A stretch of DNA of 64,000 nt from contig JAROBA010000014.1 in NCBI GenBank assembly GCA_029432815.1, forward strand, positions 1 through 64,000, read 5' to 3'. Both the position numbers and the translations under genes were made by a program. Under the pieces are notes generated by a model. It was not told the origin of the DNA. It searched no databases and saw only the letters and a list, made by a program, of their open reading frames with translations. The stretch's first letter is position 1. Every line of letters begins with the position of its first letter. This document shows, in pieces, positions 1,679 through 56,490 of this stretch. The stretch is from Pontiellaceae bacterium B1224 (GTDB taxonomy: Bacteria; Verrucomicrobiota; Kiritimatiellia; Kiritimatiellales; Pontiellaceae).

Positions 1679-3250
1679 ATGAAGAAAATGTTCAGTACTG
1701 TTTTGTTGTTCGTTGTTTTTGTCATCACTTCCTTTGGGCAGTTCGGGGATCCGTTCGCCGCTGAGGTCTCGCTGGAAGGCGATCAGATCAAGGTTGATGT
1801 AACGGTTCCGCCGGAACACTATCTGTATGCGGATCAGTTTACGGTGACGGACGCATTGGGCAACGAACAGAAAGCAATCTCTCTGCCGCCGACACAAAGC
1901 ATTGTTGATCCGAACTCCGGAAAATCGAAACCGGTGTTTGCTGAATCTTTCACGGCGCTCTATGCCTGGCAACCAAAGGGTGACGGGGCCGCGGCGGTTC
2001 ATGTGAACTATTGGGGGTGCAACGATCAGGTTTGTTTTATTCCCCAGAATAAAGTGGTCGAATTTTCTGAAACGGTGTCAGTTCCAGAGGTTGAAAGTGT
2101 GGATGCCGGTTCCAGCGATTGGGAAGCGGAACTGGAAAATTTTACGATTTTAAAAGCCCACTCCGGCGGATTGAATGCTGAGGAGTTTCTTGAGTTTATA
2201 GAATTGGATGGTCCAAACGAGCCGGCAGAAATGCTGAGCGGATTCAAACTGTTTCTTAGAGATCCTGTGGCATTTGTGCGCGAGTCCGGTTTGTTTGTTG
2301 CCATTATTTTTATACTGATCGGCGGGCTTGCGCTGAATCTGACCCCCTGTGTGCTTCCTATGATTCCGATCAACCTGGCGATTATCGGAGCCGGAGCTCA
2401 GGCCGGCTCGAAAGGGCGCGGCTTTGCGCTGGGAGCAACCTACGGTCTGGGTATCGCATTGGTCTATGGTTTACTCGGTGTGGGCGTTGTACTGACCGGC
2501 TCGCAGTTTGGAACCATTCAGGCCAATCCCTGGTTTAATCTGGGGATTACCCTCATTTTTGTGGTCTTGGCGCTTGCTATGTTTGATGTATTTCATATCG
2601 ATTTTTCCCGCTTCCAATCCAAAATGGGTGGCGGAGAACAAAAGCAGGGGAGCTTCCTTGTTGCTCTCGGCATGGGCGCTGTTGCTGCGTTGCTGGCCGG
2701 AGCCTGTGTGGCACCGGTAGTGATTGCGGTTCTGCTGCTGGCCACCAATATTTATGAAGCCAACAGCTTTGCCGGGCTTGCGCTTCCGTTTGTTCTCGGG
2801 CTGGGGATGGCGCTGCCATGGCCGTTTGCCGGTGCAGGCCTGTCGTTTCTTCCAAAGCCTGGAAAATGGATGGAGTATGTGAAATATGCCTTCGGGGTCG
2901 GCATCATCTTTTTTGCGCTTTATTACGGGAATATCAGTTACCGCGCATTTAATCCGGCAGAAGTGAAGAGTGGTGTGGATGGGCGGACCAATGAGGGGCT
3001 TGCCGATCGCTTTGCCGCAGCGAGGGCTATAGGCAAGCCAGTAGTGCTCGATTTCACGGCCAGCTGGTGTAAAAACTGCGCAGTAATGGACAAGACGACC
3101 TTCAAAGATGAGATGGTGAAGGCCGCGCTGGAAAACTATGTCCTCATTAAATATGTTGCTGAAAATCCGGATAATCCGAACACAAAAGCGGTTATGCAAT
3201 ATTTCGAAGCGCAGGGCTTGCCCACATTGGTGCTGTTGCAACCGGAGTGA
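1679..3250 (+). CDS. dsbD: DsbD-like thiol:disulfide interchange protein, short C-terminus
   Basis: 523 aa inner-membrane protein expected to carry electrons from cytoplasmic thioredoxin to periplasmic thiols. A signal peptide (1-20) leads to a DsbD-alpha-like periplasmic domain with the Cys pair in GCNDQVCF (near 113 and 118). A CcdA-like multi-pass membrane region (about 200-420) contains LNLTPCVLPM. A thioredoxin domain has W-C-K-N-C at 463-467. The protein stops at GLPTLVLLQPE, right after the cis-Pro strand, so the last strands and helix of a normal thioredoxin fold are missing. The second copy of this 3' end (4363-4612) has a stop at the same codon, so the short end seems to be ancestral. 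Start chosen at ATG 1679, behind a weak purine-rich stretch. Confidence 0.88.
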   Translation: MKKMFSTVLLFVVFVITSFGQFGDPFAAEVSLEGDQIKVDVTVPPEHYLYADQFTVTDALGNEQKAISLPPTQSIVDPNSGKSKPVFAESFTALYAWQPKGDGAAAVHVNYWGCNDQVCFIPQNKVVEFSETVSVPEVESVDAGSSDWEAELENFTILKAHSGGLNAEEFLEFIELDGPNEPAEMLSGFKLFLRDPVAFVRESGLFVAIIFILIGGLALNLTPCVLPMIPINLAIIGAGAQAGSKGRGFALGATYGLGIALVYGLLGVGVVLTGSQFGTIQANPWFNLGITLIFVVLALAMFDVFHIDFSRFQSKMGGGEQKQGSFLVALGMGAVAALLAGACVAPVVIAVLLLATNIYEANSFAGLALPFVLGLGMALPWPFAGAGLSFLPKPGKWMEYVKYAFGVGIIFFALYYGNISYRAFNPAEVKSGVDGRTNEGLADRFAAARAIGKPVVLDFTASWCKNCAVMDKTTFKDEMVKAALENYVLIKYVAENPDNPNTKAVMQYFEAQGLPTLVLLQPE

Positions 3251-3308
3251 AGGCTGTCTCTGTTTGGGTCCGATAGATACAGGCTGGTTCTGAACGGTTG
3301 GAGGGATG

Positions 3309-3995
3309 TTAATCCTCGAACAGGAAGTCGCGATACAGATCACTGCGCTTCTGCATATCCTGGATCTTCGTTTCCATCTCTCGGGCGTTCGTTCCTGTGG
3401 CCGAGAGATGGTCTGAAAGCCAGTCGACATATAGTTCCTGCACATCCGTCGGCAGGAATTGTCCGGTCTTTTTGAACCAGTTCATTCCGTCATAGACGAA
3501 CAGCGCCTTTGAATATTCGTTCTCATAGGCGGCCTTCTCCGCGTTGGTGGACGGGCTGGCACTCTTTAAGTCGGAGAGCATGCGCTTATGCACTGAAATC
3601 AACTTCTGTTTCACGGCAGGTGTAAGGGTATAAGCACCCGTCATGCGTCGTTTCATATAGGCTTTTACTACCTGCTCGTAGGATGGATAAAGGTGGCCTA
3701 CGTTTTCGCCATTAATGTTCTCGAATTGGTCGATCCATACGATTTGTCCCAATACCATGTCCTTTAGAATCGCTTTTGGCTCGGAGCCTCCCAGCAAAAC
3801 CTTCGACCGATTGTCAGTGATGTATTCAATTTTCTCCAGATTGGCCACACGCATCTGGACGCCGTTCTTGCTGCCCGTGCCTTTACTGAGTTGCACCACA
3901 ATTGTGTTGTAACTCAATACATTCGTCACCAAGTACCACTCGGCTCGTACCGAAATACCAACCACCATCATCATTGTCAAAATTACCGCTTTCAT
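3309..3995 (-). CDS. Secreted hypothetical protein, possibly degenerate SNase-like fold
   Basis: 228 aa with an N-terminal signal peptide ending near VRA-E. The first 110 residues alternate strand-like segments in an order recalling staphylococcal-nuclease domains: a VTNVLSYNTIVVQL start, VQMRVANLEKIE, then a Lys/Leu helix with LGQIVWIDQ and NGENVGHLYPS. An Arg corresponding to the second catalytic Arg of that family is not obvious, so nuclease activity is doubtful. The rest (120-228) is helical and charged. It lies in the accessory stretch between dsbD and the clpX/dsbD junction. The nuclease-fold idea is inference; otherwise the function is unknown. Confidence 0.6.
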   Translation of the reverse strand: MKAVILTMMMVVGISVRAEWYLVTNVLSYNTIVVQLSKGTGSKNGVQMRVANLEKIEYITDNRSKVLLGGSEPKAILKDMVLGQIVWIDQFENINGENVGHLYPSYEQVVKAYMKRRMTGAYTLTPAVKQKLISVHKRMLSDLKSASPSTNAEKAAYENEYSKALFVYDGMNWFKKTGQFLPTDVQELYVDWLSDHLSATGTNAREMETKIQDMQKRSDLYRDFLFED

Positions 3996-4306
3996 CTATG
4001 TCCTCAAATTTTAAATCGAATGTGAAAAACATTGTTAAGAAGACGCGATTCAAACAAAATACCTGACAAAGAAATATAATAAATGATCGCGTGACGGGGT
4101 CGGTGCGCGAAGTACTTTTCTAAAGCTTACGATAGAGAACGAGAGCAAGTTCGCAAAAATAAAAAGACATGTCCTGCTTGTGCGTGCGGTCACTGAGGCC
4201 AGCTGGAGCATTTCACAAATGAGATACCTCTGGCCTTTTTGAATCGAGGCTTTTTTCATTTCCATCCACCTTCACCGAGGCTATGGCGGACAGGATGGAT
4301 TGGAAT
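3996..4306. other. Non-coding stretch with a clpX downstream-region copy
   Basis: No gene is seen here. Bases 4243-4272 (a cgaggcttttttcat core and the bases after it) match the clpX downstream region at about 9874-9903, including one half of its terminator. The other hairpin arm has decayed. The rest is A/T-rich and holds nothing recognisable. Confidence 0.7.
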
Positions 4307-4357
4307 TTAGGCTGATTTCTTTTCGGTCTCGACGAGCTTGAGGCCTTCCAGCGGATG
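4307..4357 (-). pseudogene. clpX: clpX 3'-end fragment (second copy)
   Basis: On the minus strand this encodes [16 protein letters not shown] plus a TAA stop, identical in protein to the last 16 residues of ClpX encoded at 9914 onward. The bases differ at two places, both synonymous (His CAT/CAC and Thr ACC/ACT). The homology stops at 4357, and the dsbD fragment begins a few bases later. There is no start codon or upstream coding part, so it is a relic. Confidence 0.85.
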
Positions 4358-4362
4358 CGGGT

Positions 4363-4612
4363 CTTGCCGATCGCTTTGCCGCAGCGAGGGCTATAGGCAA
4401 GCCCGTAGTGCTCGGTTTCACGGCCAGCTGGTGTAAAAATTGTGCGGTAATGGATAAGACAACCTTCAAGGATGAGATGGTGAAGGCCGCGCTGGAAAAC
4501 TATGTCCTCATTAAATATGTTGCTGAAAATCCGGATAATCCGAACAAAAGCGGTTATGCAATATTTCGAAGCGCAGGGCTTGCCCACGCTAGTGCTGCTG
4601 CAACCGAATTAA
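4363..4612 (+). pseudogene. dsbD: dsbD 3'-end fragment (second copy, frameshifted)
   Basis: About 94% identical to 3000-3250, the thioredoxin-domain end of dsbD, including the W-C-K-N-C codons and a stop at the same codon position (TAA instead of TGA). Eleven of the substitutions are synonymous. One, Asp to Gly before FTASW, is not, and the last codon differs. A 2-base deletion near 4545 breaks the frame. It lacks the upstream 440 codons. An ATG at 4408 opens a frame of about 100 codons, but only through the frameshift, so a functional product is unlikely. Confidence 0.88.
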
Positions 4613-4732
4613 CGGCTTCCCTTTACGCGAAGGACGCATTGTCTAGCGAAAATAGTTTTAGGGCGGAAGCGGTTGAGCGCAATCGATATTTCATACAAAA
4701 GTATCCTGCATAGTGTTTTAACGCAGCCAGCT

Positions 4733-7081
4733 CTATTGCTGTGTTTTGATCACATCAATCGCATCCACCTGCCATTCATCGCCGGTGCGGGTTTTTACGG
4801 TCAGTTCAATGTCGCCTGCTGTGGTTGCGGCGGGCTGGACATACATCACCAGCGATGTGAGGCACTGACCTTCAGTGAAGACGAGGTCCGGCCAGCTGTT
4901 GCGATTGTCGTCGCCGACGATCTGGTCGCCGCGATCAAGAAAGTCGCCGTCGCCGTTGGCATCAATAGCGAGAAGCTCCCCCGACGTCGCATCATAGGTT
5001 TCAATGCGCATGGAGGAGGAGGCCTCGACGGTAAAGTCGACGGTTGCCTGCTGATCTGCATGGGTGCGCTGGATCATGTGATGGATCGGAATGAGATAAT
5101 ACGGGTTATCCTGCAGTTCGTGGGCATCCACCACTGCGGTGCGTTTGCCCGTTTCCGCGGTCCGGTATTCCCAGGTGCCGGAAACGCCGGCTTGTGATTT
5201 CCCTGCGGGAATCCAGTGACAGCCTACTTTTGCACCTTCGCCATTTTCTAGAGGAAGGCCAAATATATCGATGATGCAGGAGGCACCCGCTTCTAATATA
5301 TAATCCTTTGACAGCTGAACAGTTTCGAATGTGGGGCTGGCATTGACGGTGAGCCATTGTTCGTTACGCCAGTCGGGTTGGTCGAGAGCGCCCGACAGCT
5401 GGATGGTACCTGGTTGGGGAATGGCCGCCGCATTGTGGAGATAGAAGCGGCCGTAGGCAGCCTGCTCCGGCAGTGCGGCCGACAGGCTTAGGCGCGGTTG
5501 AATATCGATGGCCGGAAGGATAGTCGCGCTGATGCTGATATCCGCGCTGATGCTGGTATCCGCTTCAGAGGTGTCGGTGGGTTGCGATTTTGTCTCAGTG
5601 ATTTCCACCTCACTCACCGCAGCCGGTCCGGCGGTAATCGCTTCGTCTTCTATCCGTTGCTGCATATCGGCGAGATGGTCGCGGTTGTCGCTGATTCGTT
5701 TGGGCAGGCTCATGGCCCGGGCGAGCCGTAGCGCTTCCTGCTGGATGCGGATGGCCTCTTGATATCGACCTTTCATCATCAGGAACTGCGCATATTTTTC
5801 ATAGAGCGGCAGTTCCTCAAATTTGTTGCCCGCCCGGCGCGCATTTTCCAGTGCCAGAATGAGCCACTCTTCCAGCTCTGGGCGCACGGCTCCGTCGGTC
5901 AGTGCCAGATCGATGGCGGTATTGAGCATTCTTACCCAATGGTACGGATTCACATCCTGCGCCATTTCAGCCATGAGGGCATCGAGCATTTCCCATGCTT
6001 CCTGTGTTTGGCCAAGGGCGTGATAGACGCGGATTCTGTTTTGAGATGCCTTTAGTGCGGAAGAGCGGCTGAACCATCCGTGTTCGGCAACCGCTTTTTC
6101 AGCTTGGTCGACCAGTATCAGGTCGTCCTCGCTCAGCTCTCCGAGTTGGATGCGGATGGCGGCCAAGTCACTTTTTGAACGGAGGATATCCCTTTCTTCC
6201 GATCTGTAATAATCTTCAGCTTTGGCAACATAGGTACGCAGGTATTGGGCCGCCTCGTCGGGATACCCGTGCAATAGCATCAGTGCTGCCATTCGTTCGC
6301 GCGACTCGTAGGAGACTACGGCTGCGACCTCCCCGCGATTATAGTTATTGCCTTTCAGATATTCATCCGCGTAGCGGATACACCAATCGCTGAGTTCCGC
6401 AGCTTTGACCCAGTCCCCTGATTCCAGTGAGGTGTCAGCAATGCCGCTGAGAACATATATGTAAGGATAGTCGATGAAATCCTCTCTGGTTCTGGTGGTC
6501 GGTTCCTGGTAGCGCATCGGCAGTTCGTGCTCATAGATGGCGGAAGTGCGCCTGCGCGCTTCTGGAAGAAAAGAAACGATGGGTCCGAGATCGGAATAGG
6601 TATTGCCGCTAGTATCCAATCCCTTTTGTGTAATCAGGAAGAGTTCTTCCTCTAGTCGAAGTGCGCGTGCCTGAGCAACTCTCCCAACCTCGCTATTTTG
6701 GTGAATTATATTATCGAGCAGGCAATATTTTCCGGAGGGCAATCGGAGGGCATATTCAGGATGGCTACTCAGGTCACGATCCCATAGATATTGAAAAATT
6801 GCCAAGCCCCATTCTTCGTCGGCCTTTCCGGTTCCCATCTGGGCTTCGTACCAAATGAAGGAATAGAAAAAATAGGTGTCGTTAAATTGGCGCTCGGCCA
6901 ATTGATAGATACGCTCAATCTCTTCCAGTGCCGCTTCGGGCCCCTGCGTTTTGTGGAGTTCCAGCACGAGGGGCATATATTGGTCACAAAAAGCCTGCTG
7001 CTTAGGATTTCTTTTTCCTTGAGCCGGGAGAAAAGAGGTCAGTGTCAACAGAGCGACAGAAATCATCGTGATGGGCTTCAT
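4733..7081 (-). CDS. Secreted TPR-rich protein with C-terminal beta domain
   Basis: 782 aa. A signal peptide ends near LPAQG. Residues about 25-480 are helical with TPR-like repeats, the clearest being GRYQEAIRIQQEALRLARAM near 440. A Thr/Ser/Ile-rich linker with repeated DISISA-type units (about 500-530) leads to a beta-rich C-terminus. There, residues 690-740 contain a DANGDGDFLDRGDQ run that looks like a calcium-binding loop. It is probably an exported or surface scaffold protein. Its start codon overlaps the stop of the upstream gene (ATGA), so the two are translationally coupled. No family was recognised. Confidence 0.75.
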   Translation of the reverse strand: MKPITMISVALLTLTSFLPAQGKRNPKQQAFCDQYMPLVLELHKTQGPEAALEEIERIYQLAERQFNDTYFFYSFIWYEAQMGTGKADEEWGLAIFQYLWDRDLSSHPEYALRLPSGKYCLLDNIIHQNSEVGRVAQARALRLEEELFLITQKGLDTSGNTYSDLGPIVSFLPEARRRTSAIYEHELPMRYQEPTTRTREDFIDYPYIYVLSGIADTSLESGDWVKAAELSDWCIRYADEYLKGNNYNRGEVAAVVSYESRERMAALMLLHGYPDEAAQYLRTYVAKAEDYYRSEERDILRSKSDLAAIRIQLGELSEDDLILVDQAEKAVAEHGWFSRSSALKASQNRIRVYHALGQTQEAWEMLDALMAEMAQDVNPYHWVRMLNTAIDLALTDGAVRPELEEWLILALENARRAGNKFEELPLYEKYAQFLMMKGRYQEAIRIQQEALRLARAMSLPKRISDNRDHLADMQQRIEDEAITAGPAAVSEVEITETKSQPTDTSEADTSISADISISATILPAIDIQPRLSLSAALPEQAAYGRFYLHNAAAIPQPGTIQLSGALDQPDWRNEQWLTVNASPTFETVQLSKDYILEAGASCIIDIFGLPLENGEGAKVGCHWIPAGKSQAGVSGTWEYRTAETGKRTAVVDAHELQDNPYYLIPIHHMIQRTHADQQATVDFTVEASSSMRIETYDATSGELLAIDANGDGDFLDRGDQIVGDDNRNSWPDLVFTEGQCLTSLVMYVQPAATTAGDIELTVKTRTGDEWQVDAIDVIKTQQ

Positions 7082-8277
7082 TGCGAGGCTCCTTTTAATT
7101 CAGATTGTCTAATAAGTTTATTCCGTTGCTCCTGCAAAATCTTGACGGGATCTTCACCGATCAGTCGAAGTCCGCGGAAGGCGACATAATCACTTGTATT
7201 GTTATGGCGTTTCACCGCAATGATTTCGGAGTACATGGCTTTGGCCGTCTCCGATTCATTTTTTAGTCGGAACAATTCCCCAACATAAGCTCCGTTAAAA
7301 TCTGACCTTGTCCGGCCACAGGTATCAAAGAGAACTTGCAACTGGGTTTTTACCTCGTGTGAAAGGTTCCCGGCCAGGTTGGCTTGAATATATAGATCAA
7401 CGAAAGCTTTGGCATTTCTACGGTTCTGGTTGGGATTCGGAAAGCGCGGCCAGCGCTCGACAATATCCTGAAGAATTTGATCTCGGCGTTGCATCCATCC
7501 CTTTTCTTCGCAGAGCAATGCGGCGTGTAAGCCGAACCATGGATCGTTCGACTGTTTCAGCCCCCAGTCCATCAACGAAACTGCGGCATCATAATCTTCT
7601 CGGATCAAGGCAATGCTCATGCATCGGGCTCGGTTGATGACTTTGCCCTGCCTGTGCATTTCATAATAGTAGTCGAGCAGTTGATTGGACCATTCGGAAG
7701 GGGTTGCGTTAAATGCCAGAATGTAGTTGGAAATTGCATCATGCAGATTGAAAACTGCATTCTGTTCCATCCACTCCAGTCCGCGCTGGGTATGGCCCAA
7801 GGCTCCATTGAGCCAGGCGGCCTGGTTGTATGCCCAGACATATCCGCGCATGGCTGCGGCTTCTGCATAAGGCAGCGCTTTTTCCCATTCGCCTTGGTTG
7901 ATAAAGTGCTCGGCAATATCGCGGTTGGTAACGGCATCTTTATAACGGTCGAACGGAAGGTCGAGGCGCTGCTCCATGGTTTTTAGCCAGCTCTCTTCAT
8001 CGCCTTGTGAAAGGTACAGTTGGGCCAATGCCGTCAGATTTTCTGTGCTCGGTTTGAGCTTGATAGATTGCTCGTAAACGATTTGAGCCTGCTCCGGTTT
8101 GCCTTCTTGGGTAAAGCGATTGCCCAGCCGGTATAGGGCTTCGGGGTCAGCCTCAACGGTTTGTTTGGGAATGAGAAAATCCTGCTGTATTTGTGCGCTG
8201 GTGGTGGGCGCCGAGCAGAGCGTAATAATCAGGCTCATAGCGACGGCCTGGTAGACTGGTATAGAAGGTTTGTTCAT
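7078..8277 (-). CDS. Secreted TPR-repeat protein
   Basis: 399 aa from the preferred start at 8277, which gives a clean signal peptide (MNKPSIPVYQ...TSAQ). An upstream in-frame ATG at 8322 would add 15 residues in front of it. Residues 40-330 are TPR-like helices: ALYRLGNRFTQEGKPEQAQI, the following AQLYLSQGDEE, and WEKALPYAEAAAMRGY. It forms a two-gene operon with the downstream TPR protein through a 4-base overlap. Both belong to the dsbD-clpX accessory island. The specific function is unknown; partner binding in the periplasm is a guess from the repeats. Confidence 0.75.
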   Translation of the reverse strand: MNKPSIPVYQAVAMSLIITLCSAPTTSAQIQQDFLIPKQTVEADPEALYRLGNRFTQEGKPEQAQIVYEQSIKLKPSTENLTALAQLYLSQGDEESWLKTMEQRLDLPFDRYKDAVTNRDIAEHFINQGEWEKALPYAEAAAMRGYVWAYNQAAWLNGALGHTQRGLEWMEQNAVFNLHDAISNYILAFNATPSEWSNQLLDYYYEMHRQGKVINRARCMSIALIREDYDAAVSLMDWGLKQSNDPWFGLHAALLCEEKGWMQRRDQILQDIVERWPRFPNPNQNRRNAKAFVDLYIQANLAGNLSHEVKTQLQVLFDTCGRTRSDFNGAYVGELFRLKNESETAKAMYSEIIAVKRHNNTSDYVAFRGLRLIGEDPVKILQEQRNKLIRQSELKGASQ

Positions 8278-8322
8278 GGAATTCCCTAATTTTTGATTCT
8301 TATATTGTAGTGCATAAAACAT

Positions 8323-8785
8323 GAAGGCTCAAGAAAACTTCAAAAAATGATGGTATTAACCTAGATTCGGGAATGGCCAAGTTTACTGTAGCCACAAGAT
8401 TTTAAAACCGCAGATGTAGTTGCCTACCTCTAGGGTTTAAAAGCACAGTGTTGTGGTGAAATCGGTCACCCGAAGGGTGAAAATGAAGGAAACAAAAAGA
8501 CGAATCCCTGTAGGTGTGAAGTGTGGTTTGGGATAGATGCCGGTATCATTGAATAAAACACCGTTTCCTTCATTTTCATTCCCGGATCTAGGATTAATTT
8601 ACTGGCGCATGGAGATGAACGGATGGGATAGTCTAATTTCGTAAACTGAAAAAATAACCGCTTTCAAAATGCTTGAGTTTTCTTTTTTATTATTTATAAA
8701 AGATGTCAATAATGTTTTCGATAAATTTAGGCTTACAAAAAAAGTATACAGCGGACAAGATATTTTCTTCATAATTGAGGAAACA
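8323..8785. other. Non-coding stretch with a long inverted repeat
   Basis: No supported gene. It holds a perfect 16-bp inverted repeat (8478-8493 and 8563-8578) and an A/T-rich segment (8640-8780) just before the beta-helix pseudogene. Only shadow-like short ORFs occur. Confidence 0.6.
8478..8578. repeat. 16-bp perfect inverted repeat with 69-bp loop
   Basis: TGAAAATGAAGGAAAC at 8478-8493 is matched by its exact reverse complement at 8563-8578. The arms lie between two accessory genes on opposite strands and bound 69 bp with no coding content. It could be a small non-autonomous element or a folded RNA. No flanking direct repeat was identified. Confidence 0.7.
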
Positions 8786-9817
8786 ATGAAAGTCCTGCTT
8801 TGTTGGTTATTACTTTGCGCTTCGTCGTATTCGGTTACCAATTACGTTGATCAGGCGAGCCCTAATCCGACGCCCCCTTACACCAAGCTGGGAAACGGCC
8901 GCCGCCAATATTGAAGATGCGGTTGGTGCTGCCTTGCCGAGTAATACGGTACTGGTTGCGGATGGATACTACACGCTGTTGAACACAATAACCCTGCCTG
9001 GCTATAGCCGCTTAGAGAGTGTTGCTGGCCCTGATGTCACGTATATCGAAGATCCCCCGGATAAGGTTTATATTGATCTTCCTGAGAATGGCCACATCAG
9101 CGGGTTCTCGGTAATGGTGCCGCTGGAAGTGGCGGTGGCTTAGCATTTGTAACTGCCTATAACTGTGTTATTCACGGGAACAGCGCTGCCGGTGATGGAG
9201 GCGGGATACTAAGCGGAAATGCTTTTAATTGTGTCATAACGGATAATTATTCGGGCGGTAAAGGCGGCGGAGTTTTCGGAGCCGGTGGTGAATTGGTTTC
9301 TGCATGTACACTCATCAACAACGTAGCCGAGCGGGGTGGGGACGCCCTGTCTGGAGACCTCGAATATGGTGGCCCCTATGCACGGAACTGTATTTTTGTG
9401 GAGGATGGTAATCAGCCTAAGGCAAACATGTTTGGCGACAACACCATTATCAGTTATTCAAGCTCCATAAATCTGCACCATGGCGTTTTAGGGAACATTA
9501 CAAACAGCCCCGCATTCATCAATTTTGAAACGGGCAACTACCAGCTCACCCCCGAGTCGGCCTGTATTGATGCGGGGATTAATAACCCCGACAATGGAAC
9601 GACAGATATGGATGGAAATCCGCGCATCGTCGGCAGCACCATTGATATGGGGGCCTATGAATTCCAGACGTCGGAAAGTGCAGTATAAATTCCGCTACGC
9701 GCCGTACTGGAATATTCGACGGACCTGCAGACGTGGACGAATTCCGGCAACACGGTTGAGTGGCTGATTCCTGCCGATGAAGCGGATGAGGTATATCGGG
9801 TGATGTTGGAGATTTAG
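8786..9817 (+). pseudogene. Choice-of-anchor-Q / beta-helix secreted protein, broken
   Basis: The frame starts at ATG 8786 with a signal peptide and the family hallmark NYVDQASPNPTPPYT. It shifts by an extra A near 8884; SWETAAANIEDAVGAA continues in the next frame. A second shift occurs near 9115, after which GSGGGLAFVTAYNCVIHGN reads on. It then hits an in-frame TAA at 9686-9688 directly after the conserved MDGNPRIVGSTIDMGAYEFQ end. Reading through that stop gives a typical C-terminal tail (VLEYSTDLQTWTNSGNTVEW) to TAG 9815-9817. This shows one ancestral gene of about 340 codons inactivated by two frameshifts and one stop. The intact family forms secreted right-handed beta-helices. Confidence 0.85.
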
Positions 9818-9863
9818 TAGACGAATTCTGAGGGCAGATCCCGTCGATTGAGAAGTAAAAAAA

Positions 9864-9888
9864 GCCTCGGAATCCCGAGGCTTTTTTC
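9864..9888 (-). terminator. Rho-independent terminator of clpX (bidirectional)
   Basis: Hairpin arms GCCTCGG and CCGAGGC flank an AATC loop at 9864-9881, with an A run on the left and a T run on the right, so it can act on both strands. Half of it survives as a copy near 4245. Confidence 0.85.
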
Positions 9889-9913
9889 ATATCCATCCGC
9901 CTTTGCGTGGAGT

Positions 9914-11173
9914 TTAGGCTGATTTCTTTTCAGTCTCGACGAGCTTGAGGCCTTCCAGCGGGTGGAGGCCGTGCTCGACCATATCGCGTGTGATCACACA
10001 ATGCGTAACATCGTCGCGCATCGGGATTTCATACATCACGTCGAGCATCAGGTGTTCGATGATGGCTCGCAGCCCGCGAGCGCCGGTTTTGCGTTTGAGG
10101 GCCATGCGGGCTAGGGCACGCAGTGCATCTGTTTCAAACTCGAGCTCGACATCATCCATGGCCAGCAGTTTTTTGTACTGCTTGATCATAGCGTTTTTCG
10201 GCTCGGTGAGAATATGAACCAGATCGTCTTCGGTTAGTTCCTGCAGCATGGTGACGACCGGCAGGCGACCAATGAATTCCGGAATCAGACCAAAACGCAG
10301 CAGGTCTTCGGATTCGACATTCATGGTTACAAAATTCGGAGACTCTTCTTCGCTGGACTTTGCCGTGGTTCCGAAGCCCATCGATTTTTTGTCGACCCGT
10401 TGTTTGATGATGTCTTCAATCCCGACAAAGGCACCGCCGCAGATAAAGAGAATGTTGGAGGTATCAATTTCAAGATATTCCTGCTGCGGGTGTTTGCGTC
10501 CTCCTTTCGGGGGAACGCGGGCCACGGTGCCTTCAATGATTTTCAGCAGGGCCTGCTGAACGCCTTCACCGGATACATCGCGGGTGAGGGAGACATTATC
10601 GGTTCGACGGCCGATTTTATCGATCTCATCAATATAGATGATGCCGCGCTGGGCACGGTCCACATCATAGTCGGCGGCCTGCAACAGCTGCAGCAGAATA
10701 TTTTCAACATCTTCACCCACATAGCCGGCTTCGGTTACGGTGGTCGCATCGGTGATTGCGTACGGAACATTCAGCGAACGGGCCAGTGTTTTGGCGAGCA
10801 GCGTTTTTCCGCTGCCGGTCGGGCCGATCAGCAATACGTTGGATTTATCGATCTCAATGCCGTCTTCATCCAGTTCGGCAAACATACGTTTGTAGTGGTT
10901 GTGAACGGCCACAGATAAAACTTTTTTAGCCATGTCCTGCCCGATGACGTACGCATCCAGTTTTTCTTTGACTTCATGAGGCGCCAAGACGCCGATTTCC
11001 TGCGAAGACGTCGGTTCGTCCACATGGTCTTCAGACTGGTGGCCTAACAATGCATCGCAAAGGCCAACGCACTCATCGCAGATGAATACGCCCGGTCCGG
11101 CAATGAGTCGTTTGACTTCTTTTTCGTTCTTTCCGCAGAAGGAACACTCAGGAGTGTTATGCTTATCCGCCAT
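9914..11173 (-). CDS. clpX: ATP-dependent Clp protease ATP-binding subunit ClpX
   Basis: 419 aa, the usual length. The N-terminal zinc-binding domain has Cys10, Cys13, Cys32 and Cys35. An AAA+ module follows with Walker A GPTGSGKT (near 118) and Walker [11 protein letters not shown]. The IGF-like ClpP-docking loop region lies around residue 265. It unfolds substrates and feeds them to ClpP in the cytoplasm. It is last in the tig-clpP-clpX order, 14 bases after clpP, as in many bacteria. The last 16 codons have a second, synonymously diverged copy at 4307-4357. Confidence 0.97.
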
Positions 11174-54954: not shown

Positions 54955-56490
54955 ATGGAGTCAGGGGGAATACCAAGGCGTCCCGTCGTTGGCATTGCAG
55001 TTTCCACTGCGGTCGGAATGCTGATGGCATCAACCCAAATCCTGTCGCCCTCGCTGCTGTTCTTTCTCGCCATCTTCTGCGTGGCACTGGCATTTCTATT
55101 TATCCACTCCGCAAAATCAACCCATCTGGTTTTCATGGCAGTCGCGCTCACCGCAGGCTGCCGTTTTTTAATTGCGCAGCCGGATCTGGCTTCCGACTCA
55201 TTGAACCGGTTGGAAGTTCCGGAGGGCACCGAGATTCAGCTCACCGGCCGCGTGAGCGGTTTCCCTGAATTTCATGCCTACGATTCCGGTGTTCTGGGGC
55301 TCTGGATTGTGCCGTTAAAGGTCGAATCTGTTTCGTTTTCCAATGATTGGAAAACGGCCAGCGGTAAAATCGATGTCAAACTCAATGCCGCACCGCCAAT
55401 GATAGATCTCAAATATGAAGACGTCATAGAGGTAACCGGAACGTTACAGCAAAATTATTTCCCGGGTAGAAACGCTCATTTCATCAATACCCGGGTATCC
55501 GGCGTGCAGCTTCTTAAATCGTCAGGAATCGGTTCTCCGATCGCTTGGGGACGGGCGTGGCGCGATTCCGTTGCACCCCGTCTGGAAACCGGACTCGATA
55601 CCTATCCTTTGCAGGAGCAGGTGCTCAAGGCGCTGGTGCTGGGCTATCGCAAAGAAATGCCGTCCGAAGTCACCGATGTATTTCGCCGAACTGGCGCGCT
55701 GCACATCTTCGCCATCTCCGGGCTGCATGTCGGTATTGTCGGCCTCCTGCTGGCGCTCGTGCTGAAAACATTCGGCATGCCGCGCGATAAATTCGGACTG
55801 CTGCTGATTCCGCTGCTTTCGCTCTATGTAATTTCAACCGGCATGAAACCCAGTGCAATCCGTGCGTTGCTGATGGCGGCGGTATTTATTCTGGCGCCGC
55901 TTTTTCGCCGCAAACCCGACATTCCAACCTCAGTGGCCTTTGCTGCCGTGGTGCTGCTTGTTTTCCAACCATTGGAAATTCTATCGGCTGGTTTCATCTT
56001 CTCGTTCACGGTGGTGGCATTTCTGGTGATGGTCTATTCCTCCGTTCCGAAACACTGGACGCGGGGATCGTGGATTTGGGTATATACGAAATCGCTTCTC
56101 ATCACATCGGTGGCGGCGGGGCTGGCATCCATTCCGCTGGCCGCCCTGTTCTTCGGTACCTTTGCGCCAATTGCCTTCATCGGGAATATCATCGTTGTGC
56201 CGCTCACGTTCTGCATTGTGCTGTGCGGCTGGCTGTCCATTCTGCTACCGATCGCGGCCGGAATATTCAACGCGGCCGCCGTGGTCTTCATCGACCTTCT
56301 GCTCGGCAGTGTTCAATGGCTGGACCGTCTACCCGGTTCGAGCTGGCGGGTTGAACCGCCCTCGCTGTTCGCCGTAGTGCTTTGGTACGCAAGCCTGATT
56401 GCGCTGTTCACCATTTGTTCTCGACCCCGGCAGCGGCTGCTGGCTCTGGGAAGTGCGGCGTTTGCCATGGTCTTAGCTTTGCTGAGCTGA
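54955..56490 (+). CDS. comEC: ComEC/Rec2-like membrane protein without nuclease domain
   Basis: 511 aa. Two membrane helices and an OB-like DUF4131 domain (about 70-190) precede the Competence domain (about 200-490) with [23 protein letters not shown] and [14 protein letters not shown]. Full ComEC proteins of about 750 aa end in a metallo-beta-lactamase domain; here it is absent. DNA uptake through this channel is possible, but strand degradation would need another enzyme. Two exact palindrome copies lie inside. The 3' end overlaps trhO by 18 bases. Confidence 0.85.
55338..55352. repeat. Palindrome TTCCAANNNTTGGAA, exact copy 9
   Basis: Spacer TGA; arms extend to 9 bp (GTTTTCCAA / TTGGAAAAC). 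Inside the ComEC-like gene, encoding F-S-N-D-W-K. Confidence 0.95.
55973..55987. repeat. Palindrome TTCCAANNNTTGGAA, exact copy 10
   Basis: Spacer CCA; inside the ComEC-like gene in another frame, encoding F-Q-P-L-E. Confidence 0.95.

Follow-up and report, generated by a model that had tools for sequence, protein, structure and literature searches.

A fused pair of relic clpX and dsbD ends between convergent dsbD and clpX genes of a Pontiella-like bacterium is consistent with additive exchange between strains

Evidence for additive exchange of DNA between strains mostly comes from laboratory transformants or from effector arrays. In Escherichia coli, 56 of 60 analysed Lac- exconjugants were found to carry a partial duplication, which measured 109 to 950 bp in the sequenced ones and was ascribed to a linear molecule that was trimmed, recircularised and integrated by a single crossover (PMC3240628). 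Homology-facilitated illegitimate recombination (HFIR), which is known in Acinetobacter, Pneumococcus and P. stutzeri, typically removes a similar length of resident DNA (PMC3240628). For the effector-immunity arrays of Vibrio T6SS and the Rhs loci, growth by additions that displace 3' ends has been proposed (PMC5361080). Hotspots that lack an integrase undergo turnover through recombination in their flanking core genes (PMC5635113). Finally, transformation of Streptococcus pneumoniae yields merodiploids with tandem duplications of ~100 to 900 kb that arise at repeats (PMC3784515).

The locus described here lies in the window, that is, the whole stretch of DNA analysed, which covers contig 55 from its start to 64 kb in a draft genome of 5.38 Mb and 204 contigs. 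The host is a Pontiella-like marine bacterium of the Pontiella group (Kiritimatiellota), and relatives of its dsbD are found in Pontiella desulfatans, P. sulfatireligans, Pontiellaceae isolates and Kiritimatiellales MAGs. The dsbD gene, on the plus strand, and the clpX gene, on the minus strand, converge on an interval of 6.6 kb, in the middle of which a relic clpX 3' end (clpX') is fused to a relic dsbD 3' end (dsbD'). The order along the interval is thus dsbD - cargo1 - clpX' / dsbD' - cargo2 - clpX, with the repeats present and arranged as the earlier note had claimed (Table 1). Neither a second dsbD nor another full-length clpX was found in the assembly.

Table 1. Features of the dsbD-clpX interval and its flanks (positions in the window)
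Feature	Positions	Strand	Description
Intact dsbD, left flank	1679..3250	+	Thiol:disulfide interchange protein, 523 aa; Pfam DsbD_TM (1e-41), Thioredoxin_7, DsbD_N; full length compared with relatives
Cargo 1	3251..4244		One minus-strand gene and an AT-rich tail; 46.8% GC
Cargo 1 gene	3309-3995	-	228 aa, without Pfam match
Relic of the clpX downstream region	4245..4300	-	Right half of the terminator hairpin (4245-4272) and a spacer that exceeds the intact one by ~28 bp
Relic clpX 3' end (clpX')	4301..4357	-	Last 16-17 codons; 95% identical to 9908-9964
clpX'/dsbD' join	4356..4367		Microhomology; 8/12 bases shared by the intact genes clpX and dsbD in the relic register
Relic dsbD 3' end (dsbD')	4358..4612	+	94% identical to 2991-3244; own stop codon TAA
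Substitution-free tract, dsbD' against intact dsbD	4471..4587 (intact 3107-3225)	+	Probable crossover or conversion footprint
Cargo 2	4613..9841		Two minus-strand genes and a broken beta-helix-like gene
Cargo 2 gene	4733-7081	-	782 aa
Cargo 2 gene	7078-8322	-	414 aa, TPR
Intact clpX terminator region	9842..9907	-	Hairpin GCCTCGGAATCCCGAGGC, then T6
Intact clpX, right flank	9914..11173	-	419 aa; 85-95% protein identity with relatives

This junction is a well-preserved example of a type of event already known, and each of the systems above resembles it in part. As in the E. coli exconjugants, a homologous gene is partly duplicated (over ~255 bp here) beside what would be added foreign DNA, apparently without loss of resident sequence; however, the E. 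coli system involved a laboratory plasmid and one homologous gene, whereas the ends of two native genes and natural cargo are found here. HFIR similarly has one homologous end and another at a microhomology, of 3 to 10 bp, and inserts foreign cargo. In contrast with its typical outcome, resident gene ends are duplicated here, and both flanking genes of this genome are intact, although some sequence of the interval may have been lost. The Vibrio immunity arrays and Rhs loci also collect displaced 3' parts in tandem as modules are added from other strains, but those parts can remain useful as immunity genes, whereas the relics seen here stem from housekeeping genes and are non-functional. The hotspots flanked by core genes resemble this locus in that two conserved genes enclose a variable cargo free of mobile-element genes, although the model proposed for them replaces the cargo (PMC5635113), and here a second cargo is added. 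Lastly, the tandem duplications of S. pneumoniae merodiploids can likewise hold two versions of a locus, but they are far from the few kilobases and the microhomology join seen here. Because this natural locus retains an illegitimate join, a probable tract of homologous exchange and a diverged allele, the steps can be read in one sequence, and it shows how accessory genes can build up at a site without a recognisable integrase.

The two halves of the junction are direct repeats of the flanking gene ends. The dsbD repeat (2991-3250 and 4355-4612) consists of two ungapped blocks with 94% and 89% identity, the clpX-end repeat (9908-9974 and 4301-4367) has 90% identity, and the clpX-terminator repeat (9876-9903 and 4245-4272) 93%. 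BLAST against the host's own genome retrieved them with E values of 1.8e-107, 1.5e-18 and 3.7e-4, respectively, and found no further copies elsewhere in that genome. Both relics keep their native stop codons. The earlier note had placed the relic clpX downstream region from about 4243 and the 3' end at 4307-4357; we find them at 4245-4272 and 4301-4357. The clpX genes of two relatives (G020 and G015) are followed by a hairpin similar to that of the intact copy. The relic spacer contains ~28 extra bases (4273-4300, including GCTATGGCGGACAGG) that are missing from the intact copy. A dispersed repeat was ruled out for GCTATGGCGGACAGG, of which the window holds a single exact copy, and so was a repeated-element origin of the relic, whose spacer and tail occur only once in the genome.

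The ~5 bp initially thought to separate the two relics are not filler, as positions 4356-4367 align with both genes. There is no long shared word at the join, and the agreement of eight bases in twelve was counted on the intact genes rather than on the donor alleles, whose shared stretch may have been longer. Indeed, the DsbD proteins of several relatives have Asn-Ala-Gly at the join point, where the relic would read Ala-Gly.

Codon comparison of dsbD' with intact dsbD yielded 11 synonymous sense codons, with 12 nucleotide changes, and a stop codon that also differs synonymously (TGA/TAA). Three codons are replaced (E439A, D458G and E523N); the first of these falls inside the join and the last is the variable final codon, and the Asp lost in D458G is conserved in every relative examined. 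In addition, a 2-base deletion (AC, opposite 3180-3181) shifts the reading frame. The earlier count of 11 synonymous changes therefore stands, but its single replacement becomes three, plus a frameshift that had gone unnoticed. The two coding differences of clpX' as far as 4357 are both synonymous, as had been stated. From the sequence, D458G and the frameshift read as decay that followed truncation.

Most relatives carry the relic base at positions 3106, 3236 and 3245 and the intact base at 3051, 3076 and 3227, indicating that both alleles hold derived changes. The relic thus represents an allele that diverged separately from the intact line, with each under selection. That the copy diverged under selection had been proposed before, and the synonymous excess and the split among the relatives bear this out; the accompanying proposal, that it did so in another strain before import, is one that we infer from the same pattern. 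The crude dS between dsbD' and dsbD is ~0.25 overall and ~0.57 outside a tract of 119 bp without substitution. No other stretch between two synonymous differences is as long (P = 0.0042 by permutation, computed post hoc), and relatives are not unusually conserved across this tract. Being longer than chance would predict and unconstrained in relatives, it is probably the footprint of a homologous exchange, a crossover or a conversion, in dsbD. Such a tract means that the history comprised more than one clean event, unless the tract itself marks the crossover. The decisive sequence is short, at ~250 bp for dsbD' and 57 bp for clpX'.

The pattern of substitutions bears directly on whether foreign DNA was involved at all. 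If the locus had simply been duplicated within the lineage, with the copy then decaying neutrally and cargo being lost reciprocally, no foreign DNA would be needed, and decay is visible in the relic as the frameshift and D458G. However, 58 to 60% of the changes in a neutral copy are expected to be replacements, against 1 to 3 of 13 to 15 in dsbD'; for a freely decaying in-lineage duplicate this has a P of about 1e-4 to 3e-3, a value that was computed post hoc and varies with the counting of the ends. The changes in the relic are thus not the unconstrained ones of a simple neutral in-lineage duplicate, which the synonymous excess rejects. As both copies also hold derived bases and the cargoes have no sequence in common, we regard this origin as very improbable. 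The main rival combines a duplication with later exchange: a microhomology-mediated tandem duplication of dsbD'-interval-clpX' in the lineage would have come first, and double crossovers with DNA of another strain would then have replaced one copy, gene end and cargo together. It yields the identical order and the allelic divergence, and replacement of cargo by way of homologous flanking core genes has been documented in hotspots without mobile elements (PMC5635113). The patches of identity and divergence also fit several exchanges. Against it, one extra event is required, and clpX' offers a crossover only ~57 bp plus 28 bp past the indel, although the right-hand copy could make use of the 255-bp dsbD' and the full clpX. 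We consider it possible but on the unlikely side.

A hallmark of integrative elements that insert into the 3' ends of genes is a displaced 3' end whose differences are mostly synonymous; the phage-like element e14, for instance, carries a replacement 3' end for icd and displaces the old one. Here, dsbD and clpX both show displaced 3' ends that differ mostly synonymously, as a site-specific element would leave on bringing a replacement end and displacing the old one. Nevertheless, a single attachment site does not yield a fusion between the ends of two genes as seen here, and instead of an identical core at both ends there are repeats with 89 to 95% identity that derive from two genes. A Pfam scan of five reading frames of the island yielded no integrase or recombinase, and we find an element of this type hardly credible. 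The junction might also be an artefact, a chimera of two co-occurring strains created in the library or in the assembly. The genome is a draft of many contigs, and the join lies at a microhomology, as it often does in chimeric molecules. However, with a frameshift and the loss of an invariant Asp the relic is not the functional allele of a co-sampled strain, neither dsbD nor full-length clpX occurs twice in the assembly, and the join offers no long word able to mislead an assembler. Misassembly is therefore unlikely to be behind the junction.

The explanation that we favour, with slightly better than even confidence, is that the locus as it exists in a related strain was added beside the resident one and not swapped for it. 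Additive exchange at a convergent-gene site, as suggested by the earlier note, remains the best supported reading, as the order and the synonymous excess both hold; the flanking gene ends are partly duplicated, in tandem order. A donor segment from a related strain or sister species would have run from inside dsbD, through its own cargo, into clpX, and would have been placed beside the resident dsbD-cargo-clpX. One end would have been formed by an illegitimate join at the short clpX/dsbD microhomology and the other by homologous recombination within a flanking gene, giving the observed order with a single intact copy of each gene. One illegitimate microhomology join and one homologous crossover suffice for the structure. 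Since one intact dsbD and one intact clpX remain, nothing essential was lost, and the truncated dsbD' would afterwards have begun to decay. Import from another strain, its completion in a single event and the route taken are our reading of these features. Within the additive explanation, we slightly prefer a linear donor fragment that closed into a circle and entered by a single crossover in dsbD over HFIR of a linear fragment. A ComEC-family competence gene lies within the window at 55633-56418, and homologues of both ComEC and DprA were found in the genome; as both are widespread, E. coli included, their presence does not decide the entry route.

We compared the dsbD-clpX site with that of relatives. 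In four of them (G008, G020, G013 and G016), dsbD and clpX are convergent and 0.16 to 1.3 kb apart, indicating that a short convergent interval is probably ancestral. The interval of G002 measures 9.4 kb and contains different, unrelated genes, and three other genomes (G001, G011 and G027) have dsbD and clpX widely separated. Some species of the genus thus keep the pair side by side and others do not, showing that the site is also a rearrangement breakpoint. A search for a strain whose gene ends match the relics better than the resident genes had been proposed. Among the genus and family genomes searched, none has a dsbD end nearer to the relic than the resident gene, and no closer donor was found, the best matches being 76% for the dsbD region, 86% for clpX and 75% for the relic dsbD'. 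The clpX' relic is 94% identical to G002 over 50 bp and 95% identical to the host's own clpX over 57 bp, a stretch too short and conserved to discriminate. Polarising the alleles against relatives did not reveal which copy is the resident one. We doubt that the dsbD-clpX site of the genus regularly gains strain-specific cargo additively, with allelic loci stacked through convergent gene ends; if true, this would be a general route for accessory genes to accumulate without mobile elements.

The two cargoes are unrelated, as had been noted: they have no sequence in common, no repeats link them in the window, and each is patchy in the genus. Homologues of the cargo 1 protein occur in 5 of 28 genus genomes, the host's own included, and those of the two cargo 2 proteins in 6/28 and 4/28. 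None of these homologues lies in the dsbD or clpX neighbourhoods of the relatives compared, with which neither cargo has any sequence in common. Just inside the clpX side of cargo 2, at ~8786-9817, a broken gene for a secreted beta-helix-like protein was recognised by eye; its pieces are without Pfam match. An AT-rich intergenic stretch of the same cargo (36.7% GC) contains a perfect 15-base inverted repeat, GAAAATGAAGGAAAC at 8479-8493 and GTTTCCTTCATTTTC at 8563-8577, which is possibly the remnant of a small mobile element.
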